From IMG/VR virus record IMGVR_UViG_3300032053_000067, positions 1-64,000 of that record: a stretch of DNA of 64,000 bases; one strand, written 5' to 3'. A program made the position numbers and the translations under genes. The notes under the pieces are model-generated. The model was not told the DNA's origin. It saw only the letters and a list, made by a program, of their open reading frames with translations, and did not search any database. This DNA is from a virus. Shown here piece after piece: positions 8,510 through 13,243 of the stretch. The number at the start of each line of letters is the position of its first letter. Position 1 is the stretch's first letter.

Positions 8510-9622
8510 ATGACGTACTACAACGATAATGATGGCAAGGCGTGCGCGTGGTTGTGCGAGTTACAAGCGGCGGGGTTGATTACGGCCGGCCTGATTGATG
8601 ATAGGAGCATTTGTGATGTGCGAGGAAACGACCTTGCGGGATTCGAGCGGTGCCACCTCTTCGCCGGGATCGGCGGATGGGATTGCGCATTACGACTCGC
8701 CAAGTGGCCGGCAGGTGTTTCCGTTTGGACAGGTTCCCCGCCCTGCCAGCCGTTCAGTTGCGCCGGCAAAGGGGCGGGCGAAAAAGATCCCCGCCACCTG
8801 TGGCCCGAGTTTCGACGCCTCATCGCCGAGTGCCGTCCTCCAAGCGTCTTTGGAGAGCAGGTTGCGTCAAAGGCTGGACGTCAATGGCTCGCTGGAGTAT
8901 TCACTGACATGGAAGCACTGGGATATGCCTGCGCGGGTGCCGATCTGTGCGCTGCGGGCATCGCGGCGCCGCATATCCGGCAACGCCTGTACTGGGTGGC
9001 CGTCGCCGAATCTATGCGAGCGGGGAGCGGAGTTGAAAGAGTCGAAAGACAAGCGCGGATCAGGCGGGGTGGATTTGCAGACGGCGGCCACGCTCGCGGG
9101 GTGGCGATCTCCGGCGGTGCAGAATTCTCAGGGCGGGCCTCTCTCACCGGAGAAAACAAATGCGCGGTCGAGGTTGACGCTTCAGTCCCAGGCGGTCCTT
9201 GCGGGCTACCCGACGCCACAATCGTACAGCTTTCAAGAGAGCCACGCGCCTGGGCAAGTGAAACTGGACTTGTGTGCGAAACTGGCGGGCTTTGCAACCC
9301 CGCGGGCGGAGGAGCGGTCTCAACGGAACAGCCGGGACAATTACGAGGCACTATCGAAACAGGTTTCTGGAGCGATTACGACGTCATCCCGTTCCGCGAC
9401 GGGAAATCGCGGCGTACTCAACCCCGCTCTGCCCCGTTGGTTATTGGGCTACCCCGAGGCGTGGTGCCTTGCGGCGATCCGCGCATCGAGGACGTTAACC
9501 AAAGCGCGGAGGCGCGGGTGATGCGATTGAAAGGTTACGGGAATTCGATTTGCGCGCCACTTGCGGCGGTGTTCATCAAGGCAGTAATGGACTGGCTAGA
9601 AACAGTGGAGGCGACAGCATGA
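8510..9622 (+). CDS. C5-cytosine DNA methyltransferase (Dcm family)
   Basis: 370 residues from the ATG at 8510. Conserved motifs are present in order: I, CHLFAGIGGWDCAL; IV, GSPPCQPFS with catalytic Cys79; a VI-like FGEQV instead of ENV; VIII, APHIRQRLYWVA; and X, GYGNSICAPLAAVFI. The late stretch FWSDYDVIPFRDGKSRR is also typical of phage cytosine methylases. The target-recognition region between VIII and X is low in complexity (Gly/Ala/Arg-rich), because most of it lies opposite a second open gene in another frame (8616-9521). Role: modify phage DNA against host restriction. It overlaps the adenine methylase gene (ATGA). Confidence 0.9.
   Translation: MTYYNDNDGKACAWLCELQAAGLITAGLIDDRSICDVRGNDLAGFERCHLFAGIGGWDCALRLAKWPAGVSVWTGSPPCQPFSCAGKGAGEKDPRHLWPEFRRLIAECRPPSVFGEQVASKAGRQWLAGVFTDMEALGYACAGADLCAAGIAAPHIRQRLYWVAVAESMRAGSGVERVERQARIRRGGFADGGHARGVAISGGAEFSGRASLTGENKCAVEVDASVPGGPCGLPDATIVQLSREPRAWASETGLVCETGGLCNPAGGGAVSTEQPGQLRGTIETGFWSDYDVIPFRDGKSRRTQPRSAPLVIGLPRGVVPCGDPRIEDVNQSAEARVMRLKGYGNSICAPLAAVFIKAVMDWLETVEATA
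8616..9521 (+). CDS. Nested gene inside dcm, +1 frame, 301 aa
   Basis: This frame lies wholly within the cytosine methylase gene but one base out of register. It begins at an ATG (8616) with AGGAG 8 nt upstream. The product reads like a real protein: SLEYSLTWKHWDMP, then RASRRRISGNACTGWPSP, then loosely repeated elements AGWRSP, AGYPTP and AGFATP at intervals of ~30 residues, and an ending VLNPALPRWLLGYPEAW. I recall similar proteins of unknown function, with GWPTP repeats and an LNP..RWLMGYP ending, annotated near phage cytosine methylases, but cannot confirm that here. The methylase frame is the one with poor composition across this stretch. Likely co-expressed with Dcm; function unknown. 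Confidence 0.72.
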   Translation: MCEETTLRDSSGATSSPGSADGIAHYDSPSGRQVFPFGQVPRPASRSVAPAKGRAKKIPATCGPSFDASSPSAVLQASLESRLRQRLDVNGSLEYSLTWKHWDMPARVPICALRASRRRISGNACTGWPSPNLCERGAELKESKDKRGSGGVDLQTAATLAGWRSPAVQNSQGGPLSPEKTNARSRLTLQSQAVLAGYPTPQSYSFQESHAPGQVKLDLCAKLAGFATPRAEERSQRNSRDNYEALSKQVSGAITTSSRSATGNRGVLNPALPRWLLGYPEAWCLAAIRASRTLTKARRRG

Positions 9623-10617
9623 CGCCCGCCACCCTAAAAGCGCCTATGCCTTTTTTCGGCGGTAAGTCAAAGGTCGCGGATCTAATTTGGTCTAAATTTG
9701 GCGACGTGCCGAATTTCGTAGAACCCTTCTGCGGATCGTGCGCAGTGCTGTTGGCCCGGCCATCGGAACCACGGATCGAAACCGTGAATGACGTTGACGG
9801 GCTGATTTGCAACATGTGGCGGGCGCTGAAAGCGGACCCGGAAGCCGTGGCTAGTTATGCCGACTGGCCAGTCCTAGAAAATTGCCTCCATGCTCGGCAC
9901 GCTTGGCTTGTCGGGCAAAAGGACGGTTTACAATCCCGGCTTGAAGGCGATCCCGACTACTACGACGCCAAGATCGCGGGGTACTGGCTCTGGGGTATGG
10001 CGTGCTGGATTGGTAGCGGGTTTTGTAGCGGCAACGGCCCGTGGCATGTGGTAGATGGCAAACTGGTTGACACGGGCGACGCGGGCCAGGGTGTGCAACG
10101 GCAACTGGTCCACCTTGGCGACGCGGGCCAGGGCGTGCAACGGAAACGGCAGATATTGAGCGGGGCATATTCGTCGGCAAAAGGCGCGGCAAACAAAACC
10201 GGCGAGGCGCTGTTGGAATGGTTCGCTGCGCTGTCAGATCGGTTACGCCGAGTGCGTGTCTGTTGCGGCGACTGGTCGCGGGTGTGTGGGCCGAGCGTGA
10301 CGTTCAAAAATGGGCTTACGGGAATTTTTATGGACCCGCCATATGCTGCCGGACGCGATGACAACCTGTACCGGGTTGATAGCACTGATGTAACCCATGA
10401 TGTTGCCGCGTGGTGCATCGAGAATGGCGATAACCCGTTACTGCGGATCGCGCTGTGCGGGTACGACGGCACCATGGACATGCCCGCATCGTGGGAATGT
10501 GTGCCATGGAAAACGCGCGGCGGGTACGGATCGCAGGGGGGTGGGCGCGGGAAAGCGAACGCGGGCCGGGAGCGGATTTGGTTCAGTCCCGCATGTTTAC
10601 AAACGGAGTTGTTCTAA
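9619..10617 (+). CDS. N6-adenine DNA methyltransferase (Dam family)
   Basis: 332 residues, started at the ATG overlapping the dcm stop (9619). It has the D12/Dam-class signature: PFFGGKSKVADLIW, the SAM site FVEPFCGSCAVLL and the catalytic DPPY at 239-242, and ends KANAGRERIWFSPACL. An unusual insert holds two exact copies of DAGQGVQR (10078-10142 region) in a tandem 42-bp repeat. Together with the cytosine methylase it would give double methylation of phage DNA. Confidence 0.9.
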   Translation: MTPATLKAPMPFFGGKSKVADLIWSKFGDVPNFVEPFCGSCAVLLARPSEPRIETVNDVDGLICNMWRALKADPEAVASYADWPVLENCLHARHAWLVGQKDGLQSRLEGDPDYYDAKIAGYWLWGMACWIGSGFCSGNGPWHVVDGKLVDTGDAGQGVQRQLVHLGDAGQGVQRKRQILSGAYSSAKGAANKTGEALLEWFAALSDRLRRVRVCCGDWSRVCGPSVTFKNGLTGIFMDPPYAAGRDDNLYRVDSTDVTHDVAAWCIENGDNPLLRIALCGYDGTMDMPASWECVPWKTRGGYGSQGGGRGKANAGRERIWFSPACLQTELF

Positions 10618-10660
10618 TGACGCCCACCTACCAGAACGCCGAGCGCGGGGAAGGGACGCA

Positions 10661-13243
10661 ATGAACCTCCGCCCGTACCAGACAGCCGCCGTGGAAGCCG
10701 TCGAACGCGGCTGGGGCGAGTTCCAGCGGCAGCTTGTAGTGATGCCCACCGGTGTTGGCAAGACGATCTGCTTTGCTCATCTCGCGGCACGCGAGGCGGC
10801 GCGCGGCGGTAACACGATGATCCTGGCGCATCGTGACGAACTGCTCCAGCAGGCCCAAGACAAGATCCGCGTCGCGGTCGGTATGGATAGCGCACTCGAA
10901 AAAGCCGATAGCATCGCCTATGACGGGCTGTTCCGGAAACCGATCACGGTGGCCAGCGTCCAGACGCTGCACGCCAAACGCCTTGAGAAATGGGCACCCG
11001 ACGCCGTGGACTTGCTCGTTGTAGACGAGGCCCATCACGCACTGTCTGACAGCTATAGAGCAATCATTAACCATTTCAGTAACGCCCGCGTGTTGGGTGT
11101 GACGGCTACACCTGATCGCGGCGACAAACGCGACATGGGCGAGGTGTTTGAAGGCATTGCCTACGAGTATTCGATCCGCGACGCTATCGCGGACGGCTAC
11201 CTATCCCCGATTGCAGCCGAACTTATCCCCATCAAGATCGACTTGTCGAAAGTGCGGACCATGGCGGGCGATTACAACGTGGCGGACCTCGACGAGTCGC
11301 TGCTTCCTTATCTTGATACCGTCGCCCGCGAAGTGGCCAGCCACGTGGTTGCGCGGAAGACGTTGATTTTTCTGCCGTTGGTGCGCACGTCTCAGGCGTT
11401 TGCTAAACTGCTCCGCGACTATGGGATCTCGGCGGAACACATCGACGGCGCCAGTCCTGACCGAGCAGATATCCTAAAGCGATACGCGGCCAGCGAGTTT
11501 CAGGCGCTTTGTAATTCGGCGCTGCTGTTCGAAGGATACGACCAGCCGGACATCTCGTGCGTCGTGCCACTGAGGCCAACGCAGTCGCGGCCGCTCTATT
11601 GCCTTGATTCACAAACAGAACTGCTGACGCCATCAGGGTGGAAGTTAAACGTAGAGGTTGGCGATGACGTTGCGGCATGGAACAAAGAGACAGGCGAGAT
11701 TAGGTTTACACCAGCGATTGCGCAAACAAGACGTTTCCTATATCCAGATGAACATTTCATTTCGCTAGTAAGTCAGTCGGTGGATATCCGAGTCAGTAAT
11801 AAACATCGGATGATTTACGACAATAGAAGGCGGAACGGATGGAAATTTACCGAAGTATCGAGGCTTGCTTCTTTACGCGACACGTCTTATATACCAGTGG
11901 CGGGGTGCGCCTCAACGCCCGGGGTTCCTCTTTCTAATGATGAATTACGTTTTATAGGATGGGTAATGACGGATGGTTCTATCAACAAACACAATGGCGG
12001 TATTGCTATTACCCAGGGCGAACACCAACCATGGCTTGAAGACATCCAAAAGTGCATTGATGGGTGCGGGTTTAAATATAACAGGTTTGTAAGAGTAAGG
12101 TGTGGTGCTTTCAAGGCTAATAGCGATTGTGTGACATGGACAATATCTAAAGGGGTGCCGCGTGGCAGGGATAAACATTTGCGCGGATGGGGAGCACTTG
12201 AGCCGTGGCTGTCTAAAGACTTCGCGCCGGCATTAATGGCTGTTAATAATAAACAATTTGATGTTTTACTTAAGGCTATCCATCTCGGTGATGGCCTTAA
12301 ACAGAAGTCGTTAAATTGGACACAGCGGTCTTACCATATTTCTAAAGGAAATAAGGCTTTTATTGAACGCCTTCAAATTTGCGCGTTGATGCATGGATAT
12401 CGTGCAAACATTTCTGCTGTTAAGGTATTACCAGGAAGACAACCCCTCTATTACCTTCATCTCAAAAAACAAGAATGGTCAAGAGTTGGTGGGCAACGCG
12501 GAGATCGGCCATCATGGAAAATTGAACCGCATTCAAAAGAAGAATGCTGGTGCGTAGAAAACGAATTTGGAACACTCGTAACCCGCCACAACGGGAAAGT
12601 GGCTATTGTTAGTAATTGCCAAATGGTCGGACGCGGCACCCGGATTTTTCCCGGCAAAGAAAATCTGTTGGTGCTTGACTTCCTGTGGCAGACCACGAAA
12701 CACAAACTCTGCCAGCCCGCTTCGCTGTTTGCCCATTCGGTCGAGGAAGCCGACAGCATCATGGCGCAAGTAATCCCCGGCGGCGGGCAGATAGACCTGC
12801 TCGAAGCCGAGGCCGACGCCAAAAAACAGCGGGAAGAATCTCTGCGGAAGAAGCTGCAAGAGACCCAGAAAAAACAGCGGCGTTCGATTGATCCGGTTTC
12901 GTTTGCGCTTTCTATCGATTGCATGGATCTAGCCGAATGGGAACCCGAAGCGGCATGGCATGAGAAAACCGTCACGGACGGCCAGCGAAAGGCATTGTCG
13001 AATTTTGGCATTGACCTCGCTACTGTGACGTGCCGCGGCCATGCGTCCGCGATTCTCGACGTGATTTTTGCGCGCCGACAAGCGGGACTCTGTACGCCGA
13101 AACAAGCGGCCGTGCTCAACAAATATGGGTATTCGTCTAATACCAGTTTCGAGGAAGCGAAGGGACTTATTGACACCATCGCCGCAAACGGGTGGCAACG
13201 GCCAATACTCGTAGTTGCAGCACCATTACCACTAGATTATTAA
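10661..13243 (+). CDS. SF2 DEAH-type helicase interrupted by an intein
   Basis: 860 residues before splicing, 521 after. Extein parts: Q-motif-like MNLRPYQTAAVE, Walker A MPTGVGKT at 28-35, DEAH at 122-125, the GVTATPDR motif III region, KTLIFLPLV (motif IV) and GYDQPDISCVV (motif V), then motif VI split by the intein (PLY | CQMVGRGTR). It ends with a Lys/Gln-rich coiled coil and a small helical C-terminal domain (~730-860). It resembles phage DEAD/SSL2-type helicases found with methylases and replication genes, probably for replication or restriction evasion. The alternative upstream start at 10397 lies within the Dam gene and is not needed: the ATG at 10661 begins the conserved domain, though its ribosome site (GGGACGC) is weak. 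Confidence 0.9.
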   Translation: MNLRPYQTAAVEAVERGWGEFQRQLVVMPTGVGKTICFAHLAAREAARGGNTMILAHRDELLQQAQDKIRVAVGMDSALEKADSIAYDGLFRKPITVASVQTLHAKRLEKWAPDAVDLLVVDEAHHALSDSYRAIINHFSNARVLGVTATPDRGDKRDMGEVFEGIAYEYSIRDAIADGYLSPIAAELIPIKIDLSKVRTMAGDYNVADLDESLLPYLDTVAREVASHVVARKTLIFLPLVRTSQAFAKLLRDYGISAEHIDGASPDRADILKRYAASEFQALCNSALLFEGYDQPDISCVVPLRPTQSRPLYCLDSQTELLTPSGWKLNVEVGDDVAAWNKETGEIRFTPAIAQTRRFLYPDEHFISLVSQSVDIRVSNKHRMIYDNRRRNGWKFTEVSRLASLRDTSYIPVAGCASTPGVPLSNDELRFIGWVMTDGSINKHNGGIAITQGEHQPWLEDIQKCIDGCGFKYNRFVRVRCGAFKANSDCVTWTISKGVPRGRDKHLRGWGALEPWLSKDFAPALMAVNNKQFDVLLKAIHLGDGLKQKSLNWTQRSYHISKGNKAFIERLQICALMHGYRANISAVKVLPGRQPLYYLHLKKQEWSRVGGQRGDRPSWKIEPHSKEECWCVENEFGTLVTRHNGKVAIVSNCQMVGRGTRIFPGKENLLVLDFLWQTTKHKLCQPASLFAHSVEEADSIMAQVIPGGGQIDLLEAEADAKKQREESLRKKLQETQKKQRRSIDPVSFALSIDCMDLAEWEPEAAWHEKTVTDGQRKALSNFGIDLATVTCRGHASAILDVIFARRQAGLCTPKQAAVLNKYGYSSNTSFEEAKGLIDTIAANGWQRPILVVAAPLPLDY
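11600..12616 (+). other. LAGLIDADG intein in helicase motif VI
   Basis: The 339-residue insert runs from Cys1 (CLDSQTELLTPSGWK, block A) to VSN (block G), with Cys as the +1 extein residue. Block B is VSNKHRM. The two dodecapeptide nuclease motifs are LRFIGWVMTDGS (Asp125) and LKAIHLGDG (Asp231). Block F is CWCVENEFGTLVTRHNGK. The penultimate His is replaced by Ser, which occurs in some active inteins. Removing it restores an uninterrupted PLYCQMVGRGTR. Its DNA is visibly AT-richer than the flanking extein and uses different codons (TTT, AAA, TTA, ATT), pointing to a recent arrival as a homing element. Both acidic nuclease residues remain, so homing may still be active. Confidence 0.93.

Follow-up and report, generated by a model that had tools for sequence, protein, structure and literature searches.

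M.EcoHK31I, a C5 cytosine methyltransferase of the sequence YGGCCR, is built from two polypeptides. Its beta ORF was reportedly found by Lee, Kam and Shaw in 1995 to be enclosed by the alpha gene in a different frame, both products being needed in vitro. The larger chain of this enzyme carries motifs I-VIII and X as well as the predicted recognition domain, and the smaller chain carries motif IX (PMC3404938). In M.AquI, where two chains also make one C5 methyltransferase, alpha has motifs I-VIII and beta has motifs IX-X (PMC3404938).

The DNA analysed here (the window) is a stretch of 64,000 nucleotides from the virus record IMGVR_UViG_3300032053_000067, which has 65,084 bases. On its plus strand, a dcm gene encloses a second gene in another frame, and the two products, called alpha (dcm frame) and beta (nested frame), are laid out like M.EcoHK31I, with motif IX in the second chain. 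This likeness is one of published motif layout. Nesting of the small chain within the large-chain gene, in another frame, holds for the window pair and for 299 classified loci, and is reported for M.EcoHK31I itself. The window pair differs from M.EcoHK31I in belonging to a phage, in an alpha that looks permuted in its AdoMet domain, in a beta of 301 residues with AGWxTP modules, and in having relatives that swap motifs IX and X between frames. Unlike M.AquI, whose second chain holds motif X, the window pair has this motif in alpha, past the nested stop, and its chains share about 900 bases in different frames; the I-VIII/IX-X layout of M.AquI does recur in the class C relatives described below. 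Since beta carries the part that is missing from alpha, we consider it very likely that the two frames encode both subunits of one split C5 methyltransferase, a putative pair recognized from its sequence. The full-text literature searched holds no account of a gene nested in a phage dcm. New with respect to it are three features of beta, namely its size, its modular form and its range among phyla, together with the frame swaps and the permutation of the phage alpha.

The overlapping genes and their products

The dcm ORF (8510-9622) encodes alpha, the 370-residue catalytic chain with motifs I-VIII and X. Profile comparison matches it to phrog_363 (E=2e-67), while PF00145 matches residues 72-169 only (E=3e-14). 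Motifs I (HLFAGIGGW), IV (SPPCQPFS), VI (GEQVA) and VIII (APHIRQRLYW) are found at 8654-8995 and motif X (GYGNSI) at 9533-9550, so that the catalytic motifs of a C5 methyltransferase (I, IV with its PCQ, VI, VIII and X) are all present. In the AF2 model of alpha, residues 1-170 mostly have a pLDDT of 86-98 and residues 345-369 are also well predicted. VIA-align superimposes the model on M.HhaI with a Z of 14.5 over 170 of 327 residues (rmsd 3.0).

What alpha lacks is the part expected between motifs VIII and X, namely a recognition domain and motif IX. This stretch (8994-9300; residues 187-284) is predicted to be disordered, with a pLDDT of about 32-45, in line with the preliminary description, which had noted that the methylase recognition region is poor precisely at the overlap. 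The same description had placed motifs I, IV, VIII and X in the dcm frame; this stands, with the correction that motif IX is not in that frame and is found in the +1 frame. In related nested-type alphas, PF00145 covers about positions 1-165, against 1-322 in ordinary methylases of the same genomes.

The phage dcm (window 8510-8680; alphas of loci L001-L168) also looks circularly permuted within the AdoMet domain. A motif II-III-like sequence, YYNxxDxxAxxWLxxL...G.IDDRSI.DV, stands 5' of motif I, VIA-align puts residue 1 of the alpha model at HhaI 35, and HMMER leaves HhaI 33-76 unmatched between motifs I and IV. The natural permutations described in PMC5944983 are all of the X-before-I type.

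The nested gene (8616-9521) lies entirely within the dcm ORF, in its +1 frame, and runs from an ATG at 8616-8618 to a TGA at 9519-9521. An AGGAG Shine-Dalgarno (SD) sequence, read at 8603-8607 where dcm has the codons AGG AGC (Arg-Ser), precedes the ATG with a spacing of 8 nt; the coordinates and the ribosome site given in the preliminary description are thus exact. Between the nested ATG and stop lie alpha motifs I, IV, VI and VIII, and the N-terminal half of beta is read, in a frame other than alpha's, from the very DNA of alpha motifs I-VIII (8654-8995). It is followed at 8994-9300 by the AG(W/Y/F)xxP modules (GWPSP, AGWRSP, AGYPTP, AGFATP), which had been noticed before; they are real, and nearly all relatives have 1-6 copies. 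The nested protein matches phrog_1008 (E=5e-23, with residues 4-291 aligned to positions 9-286 of the 329 in the profile) and phrog_31772 (E=3.9e-11).

Directly 3' of dcm is a D12-type adenine methylase gene (9622-10617), in which an in-frame, near-exact repeat (GDAGQGVQRQL / GDAGQGVQRKR) occurs at 10063-10150. A helicase ORF at 10397-13243 (ResIII/DEAD, Helicase_C) has a long intein-like insert, which starts with CLDSQTELLTPSGWKLNVEVGDD and ends with TRHNGKVAIVSN/C, in the region of its QMVGRGTR motif.

Selection on the nested frame

Purifying selection acts on the gene for beta. It might be argued that no nested protein exists and that the open +1 frame is a side effect of the conserved methylase sequence, the base composition or biased codon use; conserved dcm residues do fix part of the +1 protein, and the DNA is GC-rich. 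We regard this explanation as extremely improbable. When the synonymous codons of this dcm are shuffled, a +1 run of at least 308 codons is kept in 4 of 5000 cases, and 6.0 stops are predicted in 8616-9518. Among relatives, the +1 frame is stop-free over about 250 codons in 59 of 59 analysable dcm genes (loci L009-L088, fetched by methylase alignment), which are related genes and not 59 independent trials. Shuffling predicts 2.47 stops per gene for this set, that is, about 145 stops and 4.4 stop-free genes, with the +2 frame acting as the null. Conversely, the +1 frame is open in none of 13 ordinary full-length C5 methylases from the same bacterial genomes, where stops are as frequent as chance predicts. 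Equivalent pairs in phages of Bacteroides, Paenibacillus and Lacticaseibacillus likewise argue against a by-product.

Third positions of dcm are frozen within the overlap. Across 124 distinct sequences, particular residues are encoded almost exclusively by one codon: V by GTT (121/122), F by TTT (98/98), G by GGG (98/98), L by TTG (123/123), P by CCC (99/99) and A, depending on the site, by GCG (111/112) or GCT (92/92). This freezing is confined to the overlap; the codons of those residues vary freely ahead of the nested gene and near motif X. Start and SD sites are matched as well. The nested start is mostly at one of three positions, -13, -9 or -19 codons from motif I. At the position used by this gene, an SD match of at least 4 nt accompanies 41 of 61 sequences with an ATG but 4 of 63 without; the corresponding figures for the other two positions are 24/38 versus 18/86 and 24/48 versus 8/76. 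The AGG Arg codon at the SD site is enriched (27/120 versus 8.5% elsewhere) without being exclusive, and much of the remainder without AGG is explained by the alternative start positions.

Substitutions in 20 close pairs point in the same direction. The methylase third-position difference falls from 0.265 before the nested gene to 0.155 over motifs I-VIII and to 0.066 near motif IX. In the stretch from VIII to IX, methylase positions 1, 2 and 3 differ by 0.407, 0.301 and 0.323, the most variable being position 1, which is position 3 of the nested codons. Upon re-alignment in the nested frame, this stretch regains the normal order of position 3 > 1 > 2 (0.362, 0.268, 0.233). Because codon-position variability here follows the nested codons, coding between VIII and IX is mainly in the nested frame. 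Both frames are real genes, as had been proposed.

In a locus outside the window (L122:2856-3773), one in-frame stop interrupts the methylase frame while the nested frame is whole.

Motif IX and the division of functions

The most conserved part of beta is its end, LNPxxxxWLMGxPxxW, which aligns without gaps to motif IX of M.HhaI. What had merely been described as a conserved-looking end thus turns out to be a C5 methyltransferase motif: LNPALPRWLLGYPEAW at 9417-9464 matches M.HhaI LHPRECARVMGYPDSY and is conserved in 99-107 relatives, and the same DNA reads QPRSAPLVIGLPRGVV in the alpha frame. Against this assignment, the dcm frame also retains a conserved EPGxxPLxxGxP stretch, which HMMER places, with a negative score, on HhaI motif IX. 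A 25-position profile restricted to motif IX lacked specificity in the PDB, and the assignment therefore rests on the frame swaps, the alignment with HhaI and a profile that covers IX+X. The IX+X profile was made from the beta end with inclusion of relatives that have motif X in frame; its top PDB matches (6 of 7) are plant DRM-type C5 methylases at their motifs IX-X, with E=0.036 to 0.96. In one relative (L241), the beta frame matches PF00145 near its end (positions 270-319, E=0.012).

Motifs IX and X do not always occupy the same frame. In 299 classified loci, some of which were fetched twice via different queries, IX is in beta, X is in alpha, and alpha has no IX of its own. In nine others (the actinobacterial Nonomuraea and Lentzea, and viral contigs), both motifs are in the methylase frame, and the +1 frame is still mostly open from IV to IX. 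In ten more (Streptomyces lycii, a Bacillota MAG, viral contigs), alpha stops directly after VIII and the nested frame has both IX and X; class C, defined by IX and X in beta, includes L241, L190 and several of L297-L312. The search patterns demand motif IX, so these counts show where IX is and not how often it is lost. As IX and X shift frames yet stay together, two chains building one enzyme is the best explanation.

These observations also bear on the earlier suggestion that the nested gene encodes a distinct factor produced along with the methylase, such as an inhibitor, a chaperone or an antirestriction protein. Nesting would provide co-expression for a factor of this kind, and beta models poorly on its own, as a partner-dependent protein might. 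Indeed, the AF2 model of beta alone (99 sequences) has a pLDDT of 60 and a pTM of 0.29 and is confident only at residues 71-117, a helix and beta-hairpin encoded at 8826-8966 (pLDDT 80-87). Comparison of this model with the PDB by Foldseek and VIA-align gave no match above Z 3.5, while its significant matches in a viral structure library are mostly phage proteins that are labelled methyltransferase or unnamed, including the FoX4 nested protein. However, the presence of motif IX in beta and its absence from alpha in the 299 loci, the disordered gap in alpha and the swapping of IX and X between frames favour a second enzyme subunit, and searches of Pfam, NCBIfam and PDB sequences found nothing convincing for the whole nested protein. 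We thus hold a separate factor to be very unlikely. For a second subunit, the poor solo modelling might mean that the chain folds on its partner.

In the proposed split enzyme, alpha would bind AdoMet and perform catalysis via motifs I, IV, VI, VIII and X. Beta, translated independently from its own ribosome site, would contribute motif IX and most likely target recognition, through the helix-hairpin and the repeated AGWxTP modules. Binding of alpha to beta and their joint activity are predictions from the motif layout. Either chain alone would be an incomplete enzyme, whereas the pair would methylate one DNA motif, and this methylation would probably shield phage DNA against host restriction.

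A recognition domain located in beta appears probable to us. It is the least certain step of the proposal, because M.EcoHK31I has its predicted recognition domain in the large chain (PMC3404938); the poor beta model, for which no fold match was obtained, also speaks against it. Beta could instead be a second subunit that gives only motif IX and structural contacts, with recognition residing in alpha between VIII and X. Besides the precedent of M.EcoHK31I, this alternative has in its favour a conserved alpha stretch before motif X, FWSDxDWLxCRDGKxRPVEPGxxPL, although model confidence there is modest (79 at residues 291-300). Yet residues 187-284 of alpha are predicted to be disordered, substitutions in them track the nested frame as described above, and short canonical alphas, for instance those of L254 and L244, keep little sequence between VIII and X. 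Recognition in alpha is thus unlikely in our estimation, and the nested gene probably encodes much of the specificity. The preliminary description had suggested that the nested gene may limit which sequence is methylated; the connection with specificity is retained, but as something that goes beyond mere constraint.

Distribution, annotation and significance

By tblastn, the nested protein is found in 170 phage records, in 138 of them over at least 80% of its length and in all of them with less than 60% identity; the overlap with dcm is present in the loci checked. Two outcomes had been named beforehand as grounds for abandoning the nested gene, namely a lack of homologues and a +1 frame often broken by stops among related dcm genes; neither was encountered. 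Both frames are open end to end in eight annotated phages (BcepC6B, epsilon15, SEN5 and others), mostly with one of the two annotated. Identity to the window locus is 30-36% for nested proteins and 39-51% for methylases. Methylases whose motifs are in the ordinary order have nested genes too, as seen in phages of Paenibacillus, Mycobacterium, Lacticaseibacillus, Bacteroides and Acinetobacter, and hhalign shows the betas of permuted-phage and canonical methylases to be homologous (probability 99.9, E=8.8e-36, 224 columns). A near relative of the N15 dcm was absent from complete E. coli genomes.

When bacterial and archaeal genomes were scanned with the nested-protein alignment, 80 loci were obtained, from phyla that include Planctomycetota, Bacteroidota, Bacillota, Actinomycetota, Spirochaetes, Chloroflexi and several classes of Pseudomonadota. 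Alpha is open in the -1 frame of beta at 75 of them; four of the other five are frame-swap variants and one is cut by a contig end. No clear standalone beta without a methylase was seen among the 80. The nested pair is thus present in phages and prophages across most sampled bacterial phyla. We lean towards the view that, across most of these phyla, DNA recognition is encoded out of frame within the catalytic gene of phages and prophages, in a modular subunit with 1-6 AGWxTP elements that makes up, together with the catalytic subunit, a deeply conserved dual-coding pair whose motifs IX and X can change frame.

Identical match statistics were obtained for five loci in one Roseovarius chromosome (L200-L204) and for three in Lihuaxuella thermophila (L224-L226), which suggests several alpha/beta copies on a mobile or repeated prophage element. 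In a prophage of E. coli EC20 (L294), PGAP breaks the dcm pair into two entries, both called 'DNA cytosine methyltransferase' and both incomplete, and annotates the adjacent MT-A70 methylase as frameshifted.

Both overlapping genes are annotated in K1ind1 (ORF28, 'Mte8-like protein') and in Paenibacillus phage Diva (gp50, DIVA_50, 'g49 internal gene'); these GenBank records draw both genes but state neither a function, nor conservation, nor a link to motif IX. The nested protein belongs by profile to phrog_1008 and phrog_31772, which are labelled 'DNA methyltransferase', the label also given to phrog_363 of the dcm frame. This label implies a catalytic enzyme, whereas what the two profiles match is the nested frame, where catalytic motifs are absent. 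The finding would correct these annotations, in that most records show one frame only and phrog_1008 is labelled as an enzyme.

To our knowledge, it is very rare for a gene of 200-350 codons to lie fully within another on the same strand and to be conserved in this arrangement across bacterial phyla. The nesting would become explicable here, because two proposed halves of one enzyme occupy one stretch of DNA. If this is true, many 'DNA cytosine methyltransferase' annotations describe half an enzyme, and an enzyme cloned from a silently recoded dcm frame would be deprived of beta and is expected to be inactive. The loci would then form a large natural collection of split methyltransferases besides M.EcoHK31I and M.AquI, with which the recognition specificity of phage methylases and the evolution of their overlap become directly testable.
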